A DNA stretch of 32,175 nucleotides from a virus, in IMG/VR virus record IMGVR_UViG_3300025326_001399, positions 1 to 32,175 of that record; one strand, given 5' to 3'. Below are positions 1-14,667 of the stretch, piece by piece (within the stretch, counting starts at the first letter, position 1; every line of letters begins with the position of its first letter). A program made the position numbers and the translations under genes. The notes below the pieces were generated by a model that worked only from the letters and a program-made list of their open reading frames with translations, was not told where the DNA came from and searched no databases.

Positions 1-460
1 GAGGTCGCAGGGACTCGAGCCACGAGAGCGGGTCGTCGGCGGGCCACTCGTCGAGGGTGTCGAGCAGATCGGCGGTAGCGGTGGTCAGGTGCGCGAACTC
101 GGGGGTCTGGCGCAGGTCGCGGAGCAGCGTGGCGAGTTCGTGTGGCGTGGCGCCGGCGAGGGCCCGGACGATCAGCGCGAGGCCGAGCAGGGCGTGGTTC
201 CGGTAGCGGTGGTGAAGTTCCCGTTGCGATAGCGAATTCCCCTCCGGGGCGGTCCGGGGTTGGGTGGGTGGTCCGGGGCGGTGGGTGCCTTGGCGGTGGG
301 CGCGGGCCGCCCAGGAACCGAGCAGGGCTTCGCGAGAACGCACGGCGTGGGTATCGGCGAAGACCTCGACTTCGATCGCGAGCTGCTCGAGATCGAGACC
401 GGGGAAGCGATCGGCGAGGCGGGAGGTGACGACGGGGTCGAAGCGATCGAGTGCGGTCAC
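1..460 (-). CDS. Hypothetical replication-operon protein, 3' end cut by window edge
   Basis: This reading frame starts at a GTG at 460-458 and stays open to the left edge, giving at least 153 residues. The start overlaps the TGA of the upstream DUF1376 gene as GTGA, and a GGAGG sits about 6 bases upstream, so it should be translationally coupled. The N-terminal half has an alternating acidic/hydrophobic stretch (around DLEQLAIEVEVFADTH, residues 23-38) and a W-A-A-R segment. A loose resemblance to the C-terminal arms of phage primosomal proteins is only an impression. Residues 95-150 look helical. I do not recognise the family. Its place directly after a DUF1376 gene suggests a helicase loader or another replication partner, by context only. 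Confidence 0.6.
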   Translation of the reverse strand, partial: MTALDRFDPVVTSRLADRFPGLDLEQLAIEVEVFADTHAVRSREALLGSWAARAHRQGTHRPGPPTQPRTAPEGNSLSQRELHHRYRNHALLGLALIVRALAGATPHELATLLRDLRQTPEFAHLTTATADLLDTLDEWPADDPLSWLESLRP

Positions 461-1074
461 GGGGTGCCTCCGGTTTCGAGCTCGGGGTGGGCGCGGCGCC
501 AGCGTTCGAAGTCGCTGCGCATCTGTGCACGCCAGGCCTCAAGCGTCTGAGATACAGGAAGGAGGATGGAGGAGGGTTTTGAAGTAGATTCTATGGAAGA
601 GGAAGGGGCGGGCATGCGCGCGCATGTCGCGCGCATTTCGCGCGCATCGCCATTCCCTTTATTCCAACGGGCTTGCGCTGCTTTGCGCGCATTAGCCTGG
701 CGCTGGCGCGCATCAAGTTTGGAATTGGTCGCATCGGCACCCGCACGGGAGCGCGCATACCTCACGCGCTGGACGGTCCGCTCGAGCACCATGCGCTTTT
801 GAACCCATACCTTATTACCACCACGCTCATTATGCGCGAAAGCGCGCATTACGGCTGCTCGGTGATCAGGCCAGCGTGGTCCGAGCCCGGACAGACCAGC
901 CAAGAGCTCGTCGTCGTCCGGTAGGACGCCCGGGTCGTCTGAATCCCAGGCGTGGCACAGGAGGTTCACGTAGGCGCCGCGCTGCTCAAGCGTCATGCAC
1001 GCGACGGCGCGATCGGCGAGGTAGTCGTGGGGATAGAACTGGAAGCTGGGCGGGCGTTCCTTGCTCGAGCTCAC
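457..1074 (-). CDS. DUF1376-family phage replication initiator-like protein carrying intragenic repeats
   Basis: The N-terminal region (residues 7-75) matches the DUF1376 signature: an F-Q-F-Y-P-H-D-Y-L segment, then T-L-E-Q-R-G-A-Y-V-N-L-L and a W. Such proteins in phages and prophages usually sit in replication modules and are thought to act like lambda O or DnaT. The chosen start is the GTG at 1074, nine bases after the TAG of the upstream gene and just before the conserved region. The frame is open further upstream, but that part is Arg/Pro-rich shadow sequence. No convincing ribosome site precedes this GTG, so the start is uncertain. The middle of the protein is Arg/Ala/Gln-rich and the C-terminus (W-R-A-Q-M...F-E-R-W-R-R) is helical. 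The central DNA carries seven GCGCGCAT copies, annotated separately. Confidence 0.8.
   Translation of the reverse strand: MSSSKERPPSFQFYPHDYLADRAVACMTLEQRGAYVNLLCHAWDSDDPGVLPDDDELLAGLSGLGPRWPDHRAAVMRAFAHNERGGNKVWVQKRMVLERTVQRVRYARSRAGADATNSKLDARQRQANARKAAQARWNKGNGDAREMRATCARMPAPSSSIESTSKPSSILLPVSQTLEAWRAQMRSDFERWRRAHPELETGGTP
549..612. other. Purine-biased, AT-richer tract beside the iterons (candidate unwinding element)
   Basis: The plus strand here is mostly purine and clearly less GC-rich than its surroundings (for example TTTTGAAGTAGATT at 577-590). It lies immediately beside the 11-bp repeats at 618-647. In lambda, the iterons inside gene O are followed by an AT-rich tract with purine/pyrimidine strand asymmetry. 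This arrangement looks the same by analogy. The segment also encodes a Ser/Pro-rich linker on the minus strand, which could explain part of the bias. Confidence 0.35.
614..849. repeat. Seven GCGCGCAT repeats (candidate replication iterons)
   Basis: Exact GCGCGCAT octamers on the plus strand begin at 618, 629, 640, 685, 706, 751 and 842. The first three are spaced exactly 11 bp, about one helical turn, and the first extends to a 12-bp palindrome ATGCGCGCGCAT (614-625). The seventh is the right arm of an inverted repeat (832-838 and 843-849, four-base spacer). An 11-bp period does not match codons, and the copies encode different residues in different frames (A-R-E, M-R-A, C-A-R, A-R-K, A-R-Q, A-R-S, M-R-A). 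A protein repeat therefore does not explain them. Location inside a replication-protein gene makes an origin the leading idea. Confidence 0.6.
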
Positions 1075-1082
1075 GGGTGGAA

Positions 1083-1277
1083 CTACATGGGCGGGCGGTT
1101 CACGCGGCCGCCTTCCGGCGCTTGCCGCCCGAGAACTGCGCGGCCGGTGGTCGCCTGCACGACGCGGTAGACCGGCGCGGAGGGATCGAGCGGGATCGCG
1201 GCGCTCTGCTCGTCGCGCACCAGCTCCAGCGCCTGGTCGCACGCGGCGGGCTGGTGGATGCGCGGCGCGCCGGTCAT
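1083..1277 (-). CDS. Small hypothetical protein between csrA and the replication protein
   Basis: This 64-residue protein starts at ATG 1277-1275 and overlaps the csrA stop codon as ATGA, so it should be translated by coupling. It ends at TAG 1083-1085, nine bases before the likely start of the DUF1376 gene. The sequence has a helical N-terminal half (C-D-Q-A-L-E-L-V-R-D-E) followed by a short Y-R-V-V-Q-A-T-T-G-R strand-like segment. It has no membrane segment, signal peptide or Cys cluster. I do not recognise a family. The position in a tightly packed operon and the exact overlap support it as real. Confidence 0.6.
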   Translation of the reverse strand: MTGAPRIHQPAACDQALELVRDEQSAAIPLDPSAPVYRVVQATTGRAVLGRQAPEGGRVNRPPM

Positions 1278-1513
1278 TCCGGGCTCCCGTCCGGGCTCCC
1301 GTCCGGTACCGCGTGGTAGGTGCGCGGTTCGCGGTCGAGCCCGGCGTCGACGCGCTCCTGGATCTCGGAGCGATGGATCGTGAACTCACGCGAGGCGGTC
1401 AGGCCGAGCTTGACCTCCCCCGAGCGCATCTCGAGCACGGCCAGCTTGAGACGCCGGCCGCGGTCGTCCGTGACGATGATCTCTTCGCCCAGCTTTCTCG
1501 TCAGTACCAGCAT
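1274..1513 (-). CDS. csrA: CsrA/RsmA-family RNA-binding translational regulator
   Basis: The 79-residue product starts M-L-V-L-T-R-K-L-G-E-E and carries G-L-T-A-S-R-E-F-T-I-H-R-S-E-I at residues 37-51, both hallmarks of CsrA. CsrA dimers bind GGA motifs in mRNA leaders and usually block ribosome access. The RNA-contact residues of E. coli CsrA have counterparts here: L4-T5-R6, and the Arg of the VHREEI motif (R48 here). Residues 55-79 form an extra polar tail beyond the about 60-residue core. The start is ATG 1513-1511 with GGAGGG three bases upstream. It is the first gene of a leftward operon with replication genes, behind its own promoter. CsrA in a phage is unusual but not unheard of. It could reprogram host translation or time the phage's own genes. 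Confidence 0.92.
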   Translation of the reverse strand: MLVLTRKLGEEIIVTDDRGRRLKLAVLEMRSGEVKLGLTASREFTIHRSEIQERVDAGLDREPRTYHAVPDGSPDGSPE

Positions 1514-2601: not shown

Positions 2602-2747
2602 GCCGCCGCCCTCAGTACGGCTTGCGCCTGGAACGCTACGCCCGGCACCGCCGCGTCGAGGGCATCGTGACCGCGGCCTGCGCGTTGTTTATCATCCTGA
2701 TCAGCGTCTTTGCCTTCTTCGTGCTCTTGTGCGGAGATCGCCCATGA
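2598..2747 (+). CDS. Small single-pass membrane protein
   Basis: This 49-residue frame starts with GTG 2598 in a GTGA overlap. It has a basic N-terminus (R-R-P-Q-Y-G-L-R-L-E-R-Y-A-R-H-R-R) followed by one hydrophobic segment at residues 23-45 (rich in I, L, F, V) and a short C-terminal tail. The charge pattern predicts N-terminus in the cytoplasm. Its place just before the recombination genes is typical of phage early membrane peptides, some of which alter host membranes or exclude other phages. Nothing here proves such a role. It belongs to a group of similar tiny membrane proteins in this module. Confidence 0.55.
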   Translation: MSRRPQYGLRLERYARHRRVEGIVTAACALFIILISVFAFFVLLCGDRP

Positions 2748-2805
2748 TCCGGTCGAACGATCAGCCGTGACCCCGCTCGACAACGCCCACCAGGAAGGAA
2801 ATGCG

Positions 2806-3597
2806 ATGATGGCAGCAGAGATGCCACCCGCGACCGCCGATGAAGGCGAAGTCCTCGAGACCCTGCCGGCGCGCCGTGAGGCGCCGCTCACGGCCTCGCA
2901 GGAGCCGACTTCGATCGAGCAGTTACTCTCGCGCGCGATCGACAAGGGCACGAGCGTCGAGGCACTGGAGAAACTCGTCACGCTGTACGAGCGCATGGAT
3001 GATCGCCGTCGCGCGGCCGAGTTTTTCGAGGCGCTCGCGGGCTTTCAGCAGGAGTGTCCGCCGATCCCGCGCTCGAGTGCGAGCAAGCCAAGCACGAATC
3101 GGTCAGGGACAGGATTCCAATTTAGATACGCAGCACTGGAGCAGATTGCGGAGACGATCGGCCCCCATCTCTACAAGCACGGCCTCTCGTACACCTGGGA
3201 CACGACGTTCTCGGACAAGATGGTCCACGCCACCTGCGTGCTGCGTCATCGCAACGGGCATGCGATCACTGCCAACTTCTCTTGCCCGGTCGACGCCTCA
3301 GCGCACATGAATCCGATGCAGCAGTTTGCCAGCTCGCGCGGCTACGCCTGCCGGTACGCGCTGATTCAGGTGCTCGGTCTCTCCACTGCTGACGACAAGG
3401 CGATCGAGGACATTCCGGACGCTTCTAAGATCACGCGCGATCAAATGGAGACCCTTTGGACGTTGATCGAAGAGACGAAGTCTGTAACGGCGATGTTTCT
3501 CAAGTACATGAAGATCGAGCGCCTTGAGGACATGCTCCAAACCGATTACCAGCGTGCGGTCAGCGCGCTGGAGGCCAAACGAAGGAGGCCGCAATGA
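2806..3597 (+). CDS. erf: ERF-family single-strand annealing recombinase
   Basis: The 263-residue protein fits the ERF superfamily, which anneals complementary single strands in phage recombination and genome circularisation. The signature is Q-Q-F-A-S-S-R-G-Y-A-C-R-Y-A-L-I-Q-V-L-G at 172-191, followed by D-D at 196-197. A Tyr/Phe-rich core precedes it (F-Q-F-R-Y-A-A-L-E-Q-I-A-E at about 104-116). Residues 1-40 are acidic and poorly conserved. ATG 2806 is chosen because AAGGA lies six bases upstream. A GTG at 2767 in frame is an alternative. The stop overlaps the exonuclease start as ATGA, so the two proteins form an exonuclease-annealase pair like lambda Exo and Beta. Confidence 0.9.
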   Translation: MMAAEMPPATADEGEVLETLPARREAPLTASQEPTSIEQLLSRAIDKGTSVEALEKLVTLYERMDDRRRAAEFFEALAGFQQECPPIPRSSASKPSTNRSGTGFQFRYAALEQIAETIGPHLYKHGLSYTWDTTFSDKMVHATCVLRHRNGHAITANFSCPVDASAHMNPMQQFASSRGYACRYALIQVLGLSTADDKAIEDIPDASKITRDQMETLWTLIEETKSVTAMFLKYMKIERLEDMLQTDYQRAVSALEAKRRRPQ

Positions 3598-4928
3598 GAT
3601 TCCTCGCAGTCGCACAGGGATCAGAGGAATGGCGGGAAGCCCGTCGCGGCATCCCAACTGCGTCACAGTTCCATCGCATCCTGACGCCCGGGAAGCTGGC
3701 CCTGTCGGACTCGTCGTTCAGCTACCTGTGCGAGTTGGTGGCTTCGCGGCTACTCGGACGCGACATCTCGCCCGAGGCCACGCAATTCATGGAACGCGGC
3801 ACGGCGCTCGAAGAGGAAGCGGTGCGCTACTACGAGTTTCAGTCTGGCGAGACGGCATCGGCGGGTGGATTCTGCACGGTGCCGAGCGGGCTCGCGGGGT
3901 GTTCTCCCGACCGGCTGATCGGCGAGAAGGGCGGGCTTGAGATCAAGTGTCCCTCGGCCGCCATCCACGTCGGGTATCTGCTCGAGGGGATCGCGAACAA
4001 GTACCGGCTCCAGGTCCAGGGCGCGCTTTGGATCACGCGGCGCCAGTGGTGGGACATCCTCTCCTACAATCCGGAGCTGCCACCCGCACTGGTCCGATGC
4101 TACCCGGACACGGAAGTCTTCACGGCGCTCGACAGCGTGATGCCCGAGTTCTTGCAGCGGCTCGAGGACGCCGTCGCGAAGCTGACGAAGGATGGCCCGC
4201 AGGGGCTCGTGGAGCATCCGTCGCAGGACGCTCCGGTCGAGAAAGGGGCGCCGCGTCCCGCCGCTGCACCTAGCGAGCGCCCATCGCCCGCCAAGGCCAC
4301 GGCGGGCTCGGCCCCCGTGAAGCCGCCAGGACGGACGCGGGCGACCACGACGAAGAAGAAGACGCCGGAGCCGGACGCGGACGGGCGCCATCCCCTGCTA
4401 GGTGACGAGGTGCATACGAAGCTGCGCCGCAAGTTCTTCGCCACGCTGGAGAACCTCATCGGGCGCGGGGTCCTCAGAATCGGCGCGGTCGATCTGCGCG
4501 ACGTCCAGAAGGCCGACGCGGAGGTAGGCTCAGCGGCGCGCCGGGCACTCTACGAGGAGCTCGGCTATCCGATCAAGGATTGGAACCGCGTTGACCCCGA
4601 GACCCTCGAAAACCTGATCGCGGAAATGGATCAACGCGCGCTCAAGGAGGAGCAGGACGACGCCGACCCCGTGCGAGAGAAGGCCGTCAAGGGCGACCTG
4701 GCCGCATTCCTGGTCTACGCCGACAGACGCGGCCAAGAGCTCGGGCGCGAGTTCGTGAGGACAACTCGCAGCGACTCCGGGCAGGAATTCCACTGGTTTA
4801 TGAGCAGGAAGATTCTCGAGAAGTGTGGGGCTGACCCCTCGAAGGGCCTGAACCTGAATCGGGTTGGGGCGCCAGTCATCAGCGCCCTGGCGCAGGAAGT
4901 ATCCGATCAAGGATCAGAGTCGCGTTGA
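3594..4928 (+). CDS. Lambda-Exo/YqaJ-type recombination exonuclease with a C-terminal extension
   Basis: Residues 1-195 align by eye with lambda exonuclease: W13 and P-T-A-S near 21-24, M-E-R-G-T-A-L-E-E-E-A at 66-76, C-S-P-D at 103-106, L-E-I-K-C-P at 115-120, and Y-R-L-Q-V-Q-G-A-L-W at 137-146. D106, E116 and K118 correspond to the lambda catalytic residues D119, E129 and K131. It should digest 5' strands to feed the annealase encoded just upstream. Lambda Exo is 226 residues, whereas this protein is 444. After a Pro/Ala/Lys linker (about 201-262) comes a charged domain (about 268-444) that I cannot assign. It starts in an ATGA overlap with the annealase gene. Confidence 0.9.
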   Translation: MRFLAVAQGSEEWREARRGIPTASQFHRILTPGKLALSDSSFSYLCELVASRLLGRDISPEATQFMERGTALEEEAVRYYEFQSGETASAGGFCTVPSGLAGCSPDRLIGEKGGLEIKCPSAAIHVGYLLEGIANKYRLQVQGALWITRRQWWDILSYNPELPPALVRCYPDTEVFTALDSVMPEFLQRLEDAVAKLTKDGPQGLVEHPSQDAPVEKGAPRPAAAPSERPSPAKATAGSAPVKPPGRTRATTTKKKTPEPDADGRHPLLGDEVHTKLRRKFFATLENLIGRGVLRIGAVDLRDVQKADAEVGSAARRALYEELGYPIKDWNRVDPETLENLIAEMDQRALKEEQDDADPVREKAVKGDLAAFLVYADRRGQELGREFVRTTRSDSGQEFHWFMSRKILEKCGADPSKGLNLNRVGAPVISALAQEVSDQGSESR

Positions 4929-10001: not shown

Positions 10002-13000
10002 TTACTGGTTGCTGGCTCTGCGCCGCAGCGCCTCCTCGAACGAGTCCCCAGCCGTCGTGTCGGCCTCCACTGACGGCGTTCCGCGCACTCCAAACTCCAG
10101 GGACGGCGCTTCGAGCCCGCCCTCGGAAATCAGGTCGGCGAGATCCTGCGCCACCATCGGAACCAGGCGCTCCCGCACGGCCTTGTCCAATTCAAATGGC
10201 TGGCCGCGGAAGTCCTTGCCGGTGAGCCACTCGTCCACGAAGGAGACGACCGGGTTCTCCTTCTGCGCGATGAATCGCGCGAGCACGTCCTTGCGCGTGA
10301 TCGGTTTGTATCCCTCGCCGAGCCGCATCACGCGCCCCGTGGTCGAACTCACGACCTCGCCAGTCGCGAGCTGGACCGCGAGTCGCATGTACTGCTGCTG
10401 TCCGGCGAGGATGTCATAGCGAGTCTCGCCGCCATAGGTCTGCGTGCCGACTCCGAAGAAGGCGGGGACGCCGACGATGAGCGAAAGCGGGGCGTTGCCA
10501 CGAGGCGTTGGGAACCGGACCTTGAGAAAATCGGCCGAGCGGGCATCCGTGCCGACCTCGGCGCCGCCGAGTTTCGCGAGCGACATGATCGAGGCGGCTA
10601 GGGCGCCATCGGCGATCAGCGTTTGCAGCGCGCGCCTCCGCGCACCGGCCGGCAGGCGCAGGTAGTGGTAGGGCGTCGTGATCCGTCCCGCAGCGAGCCG
10701 CGGCGAGAAGAAAAGCCCGTTCAGCACCGGCGCCGCGCGCTCGAGTGCGCCGAGAGATCCCCGACCCGTGGCCGCGTTCACGAACGACGCGATCCGTACG
10801 GCGGCATCGTCGCGATCGACCCCGGCCCGGATCGCCGCGCGCAGGTAGTCGTCGAAGACGTCGGCGCGGAGCTGGTTCAGGAACGCCACGTAACCGCGGT
10901 TCGAGGCGCTGACCAAGCGCCCAGCCAGCGGGATCTTCTCGGCGAGGTTCGAGAGGAACCGCTCCTCGCGCTGGGCGATCACGCCGCCGGCTTCGGTGAG
11001 CGCCAGCCCGCCATCGCGCATCGCTCCGTAGCTCGGGCGCAACTTGATGCGGTCGAGCGCGTCCACGTACTTCCTCTCGGAGAGCGCGGCCCGCGCCATC
11101 GTCCCAAGCGCGCGCGTGAACTCCTTCGGCGCCCCGACGAATACCACGCCCTGACGGAACGGGGCCGAGAGATCCCCCGTCGCCATGAGTGCGCGCGGCA
11201 GGTTGAGGACCTCGACGCCGGCTTCCCATGCTTTCTCGATCAGCGGACGCTTCGCGAGCACGTCCTTCACGAAGTCCGAGCCGTACACCTCACGCAAGAG
11301 TGCGAGCTCGGAATCGGTCGGCACCGCTCCGCCGTGCTGGCCGAAGAGTTTGAGCAATCCGACCGCGGCGTTCTGGCGATCGTACTCGCCAGCGAGTTTC
11401 GGGTGCGTGTTGATCCGGTCCACCAGGGCGTCGACATCGACCTGCGCGATCTTCCCGCGCAGCGACTCGAACTGGACCCTTTCGATCGGACCGGTCTTCA
11501 TCACGCGGAACCGTTCGCGCACCCCGGCCTCGCCAGGGACGCGCTCGCGGACCGAGCGCATCTTGGCGGCCACCTGCCCGCGGACCTTGCGGAAGATGGC
11601 TTTCTGCTCGCGCTGGAGGGCTGGAGCGGCGCGCAGGGCGGCGCGGATGCGCTTGAGCGCAGCGTCCGCGTCCGGTGGTTCTCCGCCCGCTGGCGGTGCC
11701 GGAGGACGCTTCCGGGGCGGCTTGGCCGGTGGTACAATGCGCGTGGAAGGCGCTACCGGTGCGGCCGCGGCCCGTGGTATTCTTGCTTCGAAAGGAGCCT
11801 CCCCAATGAGCCTCGACAAGGCCCCTCCCACCTCCTCAGAAACCGAACGACTCGCCGACGTTTCGGCGTAGGTGTTCGGGCGCCCGCCGCGGTTCGCGTC
11901 GCGCGAGAAGGCAAGCGCCTCCTGGTAGTTGCCACGGAACCGGACCGCGTCCATCGGGCGATCGACCGGACCCTTCGAGACGTACCGACCGTTCTCGAGT
12001 TGCCAGTCGCTCGCGGCCAAGACAACCCGATGGTGCCCGTCGAGGACATAGCTGCGGCCGCGTTCCCCGATCTCTCCCAGGTTGTCTTTCCAGACGGTGA
12101 TCCGACCACGGCGATCAGGATCGAACTTGCCGCCAGCATCCCGAAGGAATTGCTGGATTCCCTCCTCGTCCACGAACTCGCCGCGCGCGGTGACCGACGC
12201 CCGGTTCTGGAAGGGCGCGTGGAAGGAGAGTTCGCTCGTCCGGACCTCGGTCGGCTGGAACTTGCGCGGTGCACCGGCCTCTGCCGGTTTCTCCACGGCT
12301 CCTGGGGCTGCGGCGCGCCGCGTTTCGGCGGTCGGCACCGTGGCTCGCGCCGCGGCCGGGCGGCTCTCGAGCGCGGCCGTGAAGATGTCGCCCTGTCCGG
12401 CTTCGGAGAGAGCCCGGAAGCGAGCTTGGGCGACGGCGCGGGCAGGGTCGAACCCCGTAGGGCGCTTCTGACCGCTCATGCGCTCGGCCGTCGCCGCAGC
12501 CTCCTCCGGGCTCACATCCTGACGCCAGAGCCGGTTGAACGCCTGATCGAAGGATTCAGCTTCGCGCCCGAGGCCGGCCACGGCCGCCTGACCCTCGGCA
12601 CTCCCTGCACCAATCTGGCGGGTGGCGACCTCGGGCGCTGTTCCAGGAATCCCGGTCTGTGGCAGACGTCGGCCCCGGGGGAGCCCGGCGACCGCGATAA
12701 TTGGTTCCCGGGCCGCCCGGGTTGCCGCCTCCCTCAGAACGGGCACCGTGCGACGCGCCAGGGCCGCCCCGCCTGCGATCGTCCCCCCGGCAAGGGTGGC
12801 GGTCGTGAGCGGGTTCAGAGCGGCTATGCGGCCAACGTCGCGCGCCAGGGGGCCAATACCGCGTGCTTGTAGCCGTTCAACCTCCGGCACGGCCCTGGTC
12901 AGCAATTCGGTTTCCTGGGGCCCGAGCCCTGGGGTTGCGAGTTCGGGGGCGATCTGGAAGAGCGGAGCCAGGGCCGGGATGTCGCTGGGGAGCGGGACGC

Positions 13001-13184
13001 TGCCGACCAATTCCTGGAAGGCGTTCGAGACGACGTTGCTCGGGTCCGGCTCTCCGAAGAGTGCCCGCGCGCGGGCCGCCCGGATGGTCCGACCGAGTGC
13101 GCTGAAAGGCCCCCGCTGGGTCTCGAAGATCTCGCCCCGTTCGCGGGCCGGTCGTCGAGCAAGCGCGTCGTCGAAGCCGCTCAC
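10002..13184 (-). CDS. Large internal virion/polyvalent protein with ParB-like and LPD38-like regions
   Basis: The 1060-residue product starts at GTG 13184, overlapping the upstream stop as GTGA. The frame extends further upstream but only as Arg-rich shadow. Residues about 355-395 contain R-I-T-V-W and Y-V-L-D-G-H-H-R-V, the motif of ParB-like nuclease domains. From about 690 to 1040 it resembles the LPD38 region of large polyvalent phage proteins (F-L-N-Q-L-R-A-D-V-F-D-D-Y-L, A-T-G-R-G-S-L-G, F-F-S-P-R-L, T-G-K-D-F-R-G-Q-P-F). Between them is a Pro/Ala linker with positively charged helices. Polyvalent proteins are thought to be carried in the particle and injected with DNA to protect it. 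Lying between tail and lysis genes fits an ejection protein. Confidence 0.8.
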   Translation of the reverse strand: MSGFDDALARRPARERGEIFETQRGPFSALGRTIRAARARALFGEPDPSNVVSNAFQELVGSVPLPSDIPALAPLFQIAPELATPGLGPQETELLTRAVPEVERLQARGIGPLARDVGRIAALNPLTTATLAGGTIAGGAALARRTVPVLREAATRAAREPIIAVAGLPRGRRLPQTGIPGTAPEVATRQIGAGSAEGQAAVAGLGREAESFDQAFNRLWRQDVSPEEAAATAERMSGQKRPTGFDPARAVAQARFRALSEAGQGDIFTAALESRPAAARATVPTAETRRAAAPGAVEKPAEAGAPRKFQPTEVRTSELSFHAPFQNRASVTARGEFVDEEGIQQFLRDAGGKFDPDRRGRITVWKDNLGEIGERGRSYVLDGHHRVVLAASDWQLENGRYVSKGPVDRPMDAVRFRGNYQEALAFSRDANRGGRPNTYAETSASRSVSEEVGGALSRLIGEAPFEARIPRAAAAPVAPSTRIVPPAKPPRKRPPAPPAGGEPPDADAALKRIRAALRAAPALQREQKAIFRKVRGQVAAKMRSVRERVPGEAGVRERFRVMKTGPIERVQFESLRGKIAQVDVDALVDRINTHPKLAGEYDRQNAAVGLLKLFGQHGGAVPTDSELALLREVYGSDFVKDVLAKRPLIEKAWEAGVEVLNLPRALMATGDLSAPFRQGVVFVGAPKEFTRALGTMARAALSERKYVDALDRIKLRPSYGAMRDGGLALTEAGGVIAQREERFLSNLAEKIPLAGRLVSASNRGYVAFLNQLRADVFDDYLRAAIRAGVDRDDAAVRIASFVNAATGRGSLGALERAAPVLNGLFFSPRLAAGRITTPYHYLRLPAGARRRALQTLIADGALAASIMSLAKLGGAEVGTDARSADFLKVRFPTPRGNAPLSLIVGVPAFFGVGTQTYGGETRYDILAGQQQYMRLAVQLATGEVVSSTTGRVMRLGEGYKPITRKDVLARFIAQKENPVVSFVDEWLTGKDFRGQPFELDKAVRERLVPMVAQDLADLISEGGLEAPSLEFGVRGTPSVEADTTAGDSFEEALRRRASNQ

Positions 13185-14065
13185 CGCTTCTTTCCCTTCA
13201 TCCGCTGCGTCCGCTTCAGGTAGTTCTCGCGGACCTCGCGGTCGCGCTCGAGCGCGTTGCCGGGCGGGATCAGGTTCACGGCGTCCTGTAGTTCGGCCGG
13301 ATCGCGAGCCGCCCGGATGCGGCGCAGCACGGTCGCCCTGAGATCCTCGGTTGCCGTGACCTCCTGCATGGTCTCGCGAGCCGTGGCCGGCTTCGCCGAC
13401 TTCTCGGGCTCGGGGTAGGCGCGCTTCCGCAGCGTCTCGTACTCCGAGAAGGTGACGGCCTTGCCGACCGGGAAGTTCGGGTCCCCAAGCCGTTGCGACA
13501 TCTCCTTGCTGACTCGATAGGCGCGCTGGTCCTCGTGTGGGCTGCGGCGGCCGGCTGCGCGCTCCTCGCGCGCGAACGCCCGCTCCTCCTGCCGGGTTTC
13601 CCGGGCAAGCGCCCGCTCCTCGGCCCGATTCTCGCGCTCGAGTGTCGCAGCCCGAGCCCGGCCCTCGCGGCGGCGGGCGACGCGATCTCGCACGGCCTGC
13701 TCGGTGAGCGCCGCGGTGCGCCGATTGCGCTCGCGGGCCTCGGCGTCGAGTGCCGCCTGCGCCTCCTCGCGCCGCTGCATGTCGGTCATCCGAGACTGGC
13801 CGAAGGTGCGCGCGGCGCTGGTCAGCAGATGGGCTCCGAAGACGTCTCCGGGAGGCCCTTGGGTTCCGGGCTGGGGCAACTGCGCGAACGATTGGGCGAG
13901 AATGTCCCCAAACGCCCCCCCGGCGGCGAACCGCAGGCCGGGGTCGATCGCCGGCTCGCCCCGGAACTCCATGCCGGTCCCGGGATAGAACGGTCCCCGA
14001 TCGGGTTCCCGGTAATCCGGGATGAACAGGTCCTCGGGCGGGCTGTCCAGGAAGCGCGGTGGCAT
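13181..14065 (-). CDS. Coiled-coil internal or tail-associated protein
   Basis: ATG 14065 overlaps the upstream TAA by one base (TAATG). The 294-residue product begins P-P-R-F-L-D-S-P-P-E-D-L-F and has a Gly/Pro-rich first third. A very long Arg/Glu/Ala helix follows (about residues 92-187, with repeated A-R-E/E-E-R-A units), then a mixed region with a basic end. Long coiled coils upstream of a large ejection protein are common among internal virion proteins of short-tailed phages. The repetitive Arg/Glu makeup may reflect GC-rich codons. No family is recognised. Confidence 0.7.
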   Translation of the reverse strand: MPPRFLDSPPEDLFIPDYREPDRGPFYPGTGMEFRGEPAIDPGLRFAAGGAFGDILAQSFAQLPQPGTQGPPGDVFGAHLLTSAARTFGQSRMTDMQRREEAQAALDAEARERNRRTAALTEQAVRDRVARRREGRARAATLERENRAEERALARETRQEERAFAREERAAGRRSPHEDQRAYRVSKEMSQRLGDPNFPVGKAVTFSEYETLRKRAYPEPEKSAKPATARETMQEVTATEDLRATVLRRIRAARDPAELQDAVNLIPPGNALERDREVRENYLKRTQRMKGKKR

Positions 14066-14667
14066 TAGCGGAAGAGCCTCGCTGCTCCGGCACCGGCAAA
14101 CGGTCCCAGGAACTGGCCGGCCGCAGCAGCCCACGGCTCACCAGGCTGGGGATCGCGCCGATTCACGGCCTGACCGAAGTAGCCGCGCGTGATGTCCTGG
14201 AGAAATCCCTGGTTCTGCATCATCGAACGCAAGATCGCATCGGACAGCGCGCGCTCGTACTCGTCGTCGGCCTCGCCTTGTGCGCTCAGACGTGCGTACC
14301 CGCGGAGATAGGGGTCGTCGCCCGAGTAGGCGTCAGCCGCGGTGAGCGCCCGTGATACGCGGGAACCTCGACGTTGCAGAAGATTCGCGCGAATGAAGTC
14401 GAGCAACGCAGGCGACCCCAGCGGATCGAACACCCCGGCCTCGCGGCCCGACTCGATCAGGTTGGTCTGGAACTGCGGGCCCGAGAACTCGCCCTCGGGA
14501 TTGACGCCGAGCGCGGATGGCCCTGCGGGCATCGGTTGACTGCGCCGGAAGGCGCCGACCGCTCCGCGTAGACGTGGGTTCACCGCTGGTGCACCACCGG
14601 CCGATGATCCCAAGAGTGCCGGTCTCGGGAAGGGGCGGTCGTAGACTGAATATCGACTCTCGGGCAC
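14065..14667 (-). CDS. Hypothetical virion-associated protein
   Basis: GTG 14667 follows AGGAGGG by four bases. The 200-residue product is Gly/Pro/Ala-rich in the first half, with helices later (A-L-L-D-F-I-R-A-N-L-L-Q-R-R, then E-Y-E-R-A-L-S-D-A-I-L-R-S-M-M). It ends in a small Ala/Gly hydrophobic patch. It is sandwiched between the large tail protein and internal proteins, so it is probably part of the tail or the ejected set. The stop overlaps the next ATG. No family is recognised. Confidence 0.7.
   Translation of the reverse strand: MPESRYSVYDRPFPRPALLGSSAGGAPAVNPRLRGAVGAFRRSQPMPAGPSALGVNPEGEFSGPQFQTNLIESGREAGVFDPLGSPALLDFIRANLLQRRGSRVSRALTAADAYSGDDPYLRGYARLSAQGEADDEYERALSDAILRSMMQNQGFLQDITRGYFGQAVNRRDPQPGEPWAAAAGQFLGPFAGAGAARLFR

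Follow-up and report, generated by a model that had tools for sequence, protein, structure and literature searches.

The DUF1376 gene at the left end of the window

The window, which is the whole stretch of viral DNA analysed here (32,175 nt), derives from a record that is a linear fragment and carries a DUF1376 gene at its left end. The features of this gene are listed below in coding order, with coordinates of the window.

457..1074, minus strand: DUF1376 gene (205 aa), proposed to encode the initiator, probably starting at the GTG at 1074
790..1044, minus strand: DUF1376 domain (residues 11-95), a predicted winged helix-turn-helix that would bind the iterons
842..849, minus strand: iteron ATGCGCGC, frame MRA, within the domain-coding part
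751..758, minus strand: iteron ATGCGCGC, frame YAR
706..713, minus strand: iteron ATGCGCGC, frame DAR
685..692, minus strand: iteron ATGCGCGC, frame NAR
640..647, minus strand: iteron ATGCGCGCGAA, frame DAR, begins the set of three spaced exactly 11 bp apart
629..636, minus strand: iteron ATGCGCGCGAC, frame MRA, middle copy of this set
618..625, minus strand: iteron ATGCGCGC, frame TCAR, closing copy of this set and the final iteron ahead of the tract
614..625, both strands: 12-bp palindrome ATGCGCGCGCAT, one octamer copy per strand
549..612, minus strand: AT-richer, strand-asymmetric tract adjoining the last iteron, proposed DNA-unwinding element
460..548, minus strand: C-terminal segment with one predicted helix (residues 178-195), putative helicase/loader contact

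The gene product matched DUF1376 (PF07120) with 43.5 bits against a curated cut-off of 30.1 (E 4.3e-11), and its nearest PHROGs phage family (E 6.6e-9) is named 'primosomal protein'. AlphaFold2 modelling with 67 relatives predicted a winged helix-turn-helix with confidence, then a long helix, a disordered linker and one further helix (pLDDT 82 at full length; pLDDT 92 and pTM 0.82 for the domain alone). The C-terminal segment is short and has no Pfam match. At the coding level the iterons specify the end of the domain and the linker, and the tract specifies the Ser/Thr-rich part of the linker. A longer open frame reaching to 1389 was rejected as the gene start as it lacks domain support; its 105 extra residues are Arg/Ala-rich and overlap a csrA-like gene and an ORF at 1083-1277.

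The csrA-like gene (PF02599, E 1.7e-14; 1274-1513, minus strand) lies just upstream, so that a phage-borne CsrA adjoins the proposed replication initiator on the same strand. A Cro/CI-like HTH gene is found at 1658-1858, and an ERF-type annealing protein and a YqaJ exonuclease are encoded nearby in divergent orientation (2710-4928, plus strand). No helicase or loader gene is visible in the window, which ends with the contig.

An octamer array and an adjoining tract

Seven copies of the octamer GCGCGCAT start at positions 618, 629, 640, 685, 706, 751 and 842 of the plus strand, with start-to-start spacings of 11, 11, 45, 21, 45 and 91. Read in the coding sense on the minus strand they are ATGCGCGC, seven times within 205 codons, and an eighth copy lies on the opposite strand at 614-621. 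The sequence-only reading that first drew attention to the array had reported these seven positions, the exact 11-bp spacing of the copies at 618, 629 and 640, and the 12-bp palindrome around the first copy, and all are present as it described. Only three of the seven copies are spaced at 11 bp, and the spacings of 45 and 91 bp do not correspond to whole helical turns.

That reading had also argued that protein constraint does not explain the array, and our analysis agrees. The seven copies are spread over all three reading frames and encode differing residues. Synonymous-codon shuffles of the coding sequence contained a mean of 2.16 copies and a maximum of 6, and none of 20,000 reached 7. When any single octamer on either strand was counted, 7 was reached in 2 of 3,000 synonymous shuffles, and the observed 8 never. 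The octamer is not dense elsewhere: the rest of the 32-kb window has two copies only (15748, minus strand; 25306, plus strand), compared with 4.9 expected from dinucleotide shuffles of the whole window. Outside the gene the octamer is thus below expectation, and the excess lies entirely within the DUF1376 gene. A scan of the whole window revealed no other 240-bp stretch in which a single octamer occurs five or more times.

The tract next to the last iteron, described earlier as purine-biased and AT-richer, has both properties. Its AT fraction is 0.48 compared to 0.37 for the gene, which is modest in absolute terms, and its purine fraction on the plus strand is 0.78, a strand asymmetry equalled in only 7 of 32,111 64-bp windows. 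On the coding strand, the 60 nt at 547-606 contain only 5% G.

Iterons at 11-bp spacing in DUF1376 genes

Single-protein searches of viral contigs with the DUF1376 protein and the exonuclease of the window gave no confirmed relative, and a scan with the ERF protein found only a distant 5-kb contig without DUF1376. Neither these protein scans nor a repeat scan yielded a close relative keeping ATGCGCGC, which is particular to the window among the DUF1376 genes compared. When 2.9 million viral contigs were scanned for ATGCGCGCNNNATGCGCGC, 41 loci were recovered, four of them inside DUF1376 genes of one clade; since the pair in these four loci is non-homologous and lies on the far side of a (CACCAA)n tract, it was counted as suggestive only. 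In L322 and L330, the GGCAATGCCGCA-type repeats of the DUF1376 genes precede a (CACCAA)n tract that encodes Thr-Pro repeats. Clusters of three to four ATGCGCGC copies, some at 11 bp, were also seen outside DUF1376 genes (L338:2290-2420, L305:6490-6560, L316 and L320).

Because no close relative of the phage was found in the viral collection, we examined DUF1376 genes in general for repeats. Exact 7-mers were counted in the part after the domain in 131 non-redundant genes drawn from 303 loci, and the expectation was taken from synonymous shuffles. Recurrence at 11 bp was found in 65 of the 131 genes compared to 12.6 expected, with 325 pairs against 22, and recurrence at 22 bp in 33 genes compared to 7.9, with harmonics at 33, 44 and 55 bp. 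Since 11 is not a multiple of 3, repeated peptides are not the source of this period. The signal was kept under stricter removal of redundancy (41/99 genes against 8.8; 31/80 against 7.1), whereas 188 other genes of the same loci showed no 11-bp excess (9 pairs against 6.8). Gene by gene, 54 of 131 were significant at p <= 0.05 and 43 lay within a 5% false-discovery limit, indicating that not every DUF1376 member shows the repeats. About half of the genes had no significant 11-bp repeats in the exact-word test, including L043, the nearest relative found.

The iteron sequence changes from clade to clade and the layout persists. Perfect 11-bp examples are L072, with seven copies of AAGCTCAGCTC, L192 (CGCGGGACCTC), L124 (ATCGATCATCG), L110 (AACCAACCTTC), L046 (AAGGGTGGTTC, also in L063) and L060 (AACCACCCTTT), and an alphaproteobacterial clade has CGAAAACGCGC. 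Such differences between genes are as expected of initiator-specific sites. Four genes of the alphaproteobacterial type (L157, L191, L167 and L175) have a second 11-bp repeat, the palindromic AAGCC(A/G)GGCTT, downstream of the first.

When 71 genes were aligned on their last iteron, the AT fraction rose from about 0.45-0.48 to 0.57-0.59 at 20-60 nt past the iteron, and G dropped to a minimum of 0.18 where AT peaked. Short tandem arrays with units of 6 or 7 bp, among them (CTTCAT)n, (TACATC)n, (CTTCAGT)n and (AGAAGCC)n, clustered 0-90 nt after the iterons in 33 of 73 genes, and the family excess at the 7-bp period was 181 pairs compared to 9.8. Exact examples just downstream of the iterons occur in L123, L114, L166 and L170 (AACCAATAACC..., CTTCAGT, AGAAGCC). 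Candidate roles for these repeats are unwinding, helicase loading or slippage. The genes with iterons share one layout, in which a winged helix is followed by 11-bp iterons and then, within 90 bp, by an AT-richer, G-poor tract; the tract of the window is the G-poor equivalent in the same place.

The genes around DUF1376 were also inspected. A helicase profile matched in 42 of the 131 loci despite short flanks, with the helicase downstream on the same strand in 26 and upstream in 14. Ten of ten large ORFs near DUF1376 genes were DnaB helicases or primase-helicases, a count that is biased because some of these ORFs had been picked for their helicase-like look. DnaC-like neighbours were found in only 5 loci by single-sequence search, and DnaB-type helicases were commoner. 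Overall, DUF1376 genes either occupy the position of lambda gene O (repressor-cro-cII-X-DnaC) or adjoin DnaB helicases.

The Rac prophage of E. coli K-12 offers an example. Its ydaU belongs to the DUF1376 family; repeats of the TGTTCAAACA type recur in it at 33, 11 and 12 bp, its tract is AT-rich and contains 6-bp repeats, and the gene that follows is ydaV, which encodes a DnaC-type loader (E 2.3e-92). Rac has been reported to have an active origin, oriJ (PMC3945230), and we infer that oriJ is the ydaU repeat array. Lambda-O-type proteins encoded by Gifsy-1 and by a Klebsiella plasmid of 4.6 kb have the C-terminal domain of YdaU joined to PF04492 N-domains, and there too the iterons, at 22-24 bp, are placed in this linker. 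This 4,627-bp plasmid (L348, NZ_CP080357.1) carries a repressor, cro, cII, an O-like gene with internal iterons, a loader and ren, and is a natural counterpart of lambda-dv plasmids.

Two Rac relatives differ from K-12 by exchanges in this region. The relative 673R7 agrees with K-12 (93-96%) as far as the end of ydaT and once more from position 1004 of the compared segment onwards, near the tract end (about 1030); between these matches, it has a different N-domain with repeats of its own in place of the DUF1376 domain and iterons. Rac-SA53 (L347) shows the reverse: it retains domain, iterons and tract up to position 1026 and has a DnaT-type C-domain instead of the one in K-12. The L347 ydaU thus joins a DUF1376 N-domain to a DnaT (PF17948) C-domain, in effect an exchange of the recruitment domain. 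Both exchanges have their junction at the tract end, which suggests that the DUF1376 domain, iterons and tract behave as a cassette, with the caveat that DNA neighbours move together anyway. The block in Rac appears to have been swapped as a unit against a fixed O-like C-terminus. Divergence within the YdaU clade is too small for a comparison of synonymous sites.

A candidate origin within its own initiator gene

We consider it likely, from the sequence features described, that the array is a phage replication origin embedded in its own initiator gene. The sequence-only reading had proposed such a candidate origin, and the array, the tract and the layout of the family all support it. The DUF1376 winged-helix N-domain would bind the ATGCGCGC iterons, three of which are stacked one helical turn apart. 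The assembled nucleoprotein would then open the adjacent AT-richer, strand-asymmetric tract at 549-612, and the C-terminal part, joined via the iteron-encoded linker, would recruit a helicase loader or a DnaB-type helicase. Iteron binding, unwinding, helicase recruitment and origin activity are thus put forward here as presumed steps.

Other explanations of the repeats were weighed against a replication origin. Codon usage, amino-acid repeats or functionless microsatellites born of slippage might produce short repeats here, given that this GC-rich phage favours the codons GCG and CGC, that the Ser/Thr-rich linkers of the family tolerate repeats and that periods of 6 or 12 bp can come from slippage. 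However, the window copies are mostly not in tandem, they occupy three frames with different residues at a number that 20,000 synonymous shuffles did not reach, and the 11-bp period is seen again, in unrelated sequences, across dozens of DUF1376 genes and not in neighbouring genes. This origin of the repeats is highly improbable. It is very unlikely that they serve as operators for transcriptional control by the DUF1376 protein or by another regulator: although winged-helix proteins often bind operators and initiators frequently autoregulate, the array extends from mid-gene to the 3' end, away from the promoter, in a region with no promoter-like site. It is also followed by an unwinding-like tract, and the gene is one that takes the lambda O position, beside DnaC or DnaB.

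The least probable reading is that the repeats act in the segregation of a plasmid-like prophage, for instance as a centromere-like partition site. Centromere proteins with a winged helix likewise bind short iterons, and centromere-binding folds of the TubR and AspA types came up far down in the fold search, in which initiator folds rank first. No parA, parM or tubZ partner was recognised in the scanned ORFs, the ParB-like match to phrog_1033 at 10002-14141 is weak (E 0.0087), and the associations seen in relatives are with helicases and loaders.

DUF1376, which still bears the label 'unknown function', occurs commonly in phages and prophages across many bacterial phyla. Five papers in the literature collection searched mention it, and a search for it together with replication found none that, judged by title and abstract, links it to replication origins. 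With moderate confidence, we propose that DUF1376 proteins are a widespread class of phage initiator apart from lambda O and RepA_N, with gene-embedded origins of 11-bp iterons and a 6/7-bp tandem unwinding tract, in which domain, iterons and tract form an interchangeable specificity cassette and the iterons diversify with the domain. If this is true, the repeat test gives the family a function, that of an origin-binding initiator, and the replication origins of many uncultured phages become predictable from sequence alone. It would also suggest where the Rac origin oriJ may lie, and the naturally occurring pairs of domain and iterons would form a series from which to learn recognition rules.

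The best explanation of the working mode, by analogy, is one like that of lambda ori and O, with the lambda origin within gene O serving as the comparison for the working principle (PMC7466680). This likeness, already drawn from the window sequence, is strengthened by gene order, by block exchange and by the finding that some DUF1376 proteins end in an O-like domain. As in lambda and the Stx-phage origins, the iterons lie mid-gene between an N-terminal DNA-binding domain and a C-terminal domain and are followed by an AT-rich tract. The gene order repressor-cro-cII-O-P/DnaC is shared, and some DUF1376 proteins, such as YdaU, have an O-type C-terminal domain. In contrast to lambda O, the N-domain is DUF1376 instead of PF04492, and a Pfam search of the window protein found only PF07120 and no PF04492 (Phage_rep_O). 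The lambda-type origins of Gifsy-1 and the Klebsiella plasmid have palindromic units of about 22-24 bp, whereas DUF1376 iterons recur every 11 bp, and the tract in DUF1376 genes, unlike that of lambda, is often made of 6/7-bp tandem repeats. Rac ydaU-ydaV/oriJ is alike in having a DUF1376 gene with repeats and an AT-rich tract upstream of the DnaC-like ydaV.

RepA_N plasmids provide a further comparison. The top 7 PDB chains for the winged-helix model were all RepA_N initiators (5kbj, 4pt7, 4pql and 4pta), with weak matches (E 0.012-0.041, probability 0.90-0.98, TM about 0.43); 4pt7 and 4pta are S. aureus RepA_N proteins (PMC7145576). A sequence-profile search of the PDB gave nothing credible, and the window protein had no Pfam match to PF06970 (RepA_N) up to E 1. 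As the fold match is below usual significance, RepA_N homology is not established, and a distant kinship, suggested by the structural model, is possible. In RepA_N plasmids the Rep boxes lie mid-rep and the linker they encode is dispensable, and in pPR9 a segment of ~500 bp with the N-domain and origin has been swapped (PMC5703833), which resembles the ~498-bp swap in the Rac relatives. The RepA_N systems of pSK41 and pTZ2162 (PF06970) likewise have a winged-helix N-domain, which binds repeats central in rep, and an exchangeable C-domain. They are unlike DUF1376 in that the two families show no sequence match, their iterons are different and they belong mainly to Firmicutes plasmids. The general principle of a gene-embedded origin is already known from these systems, and what is new is that DUF1376 is tied to embedded origins with 11-bp iterons.
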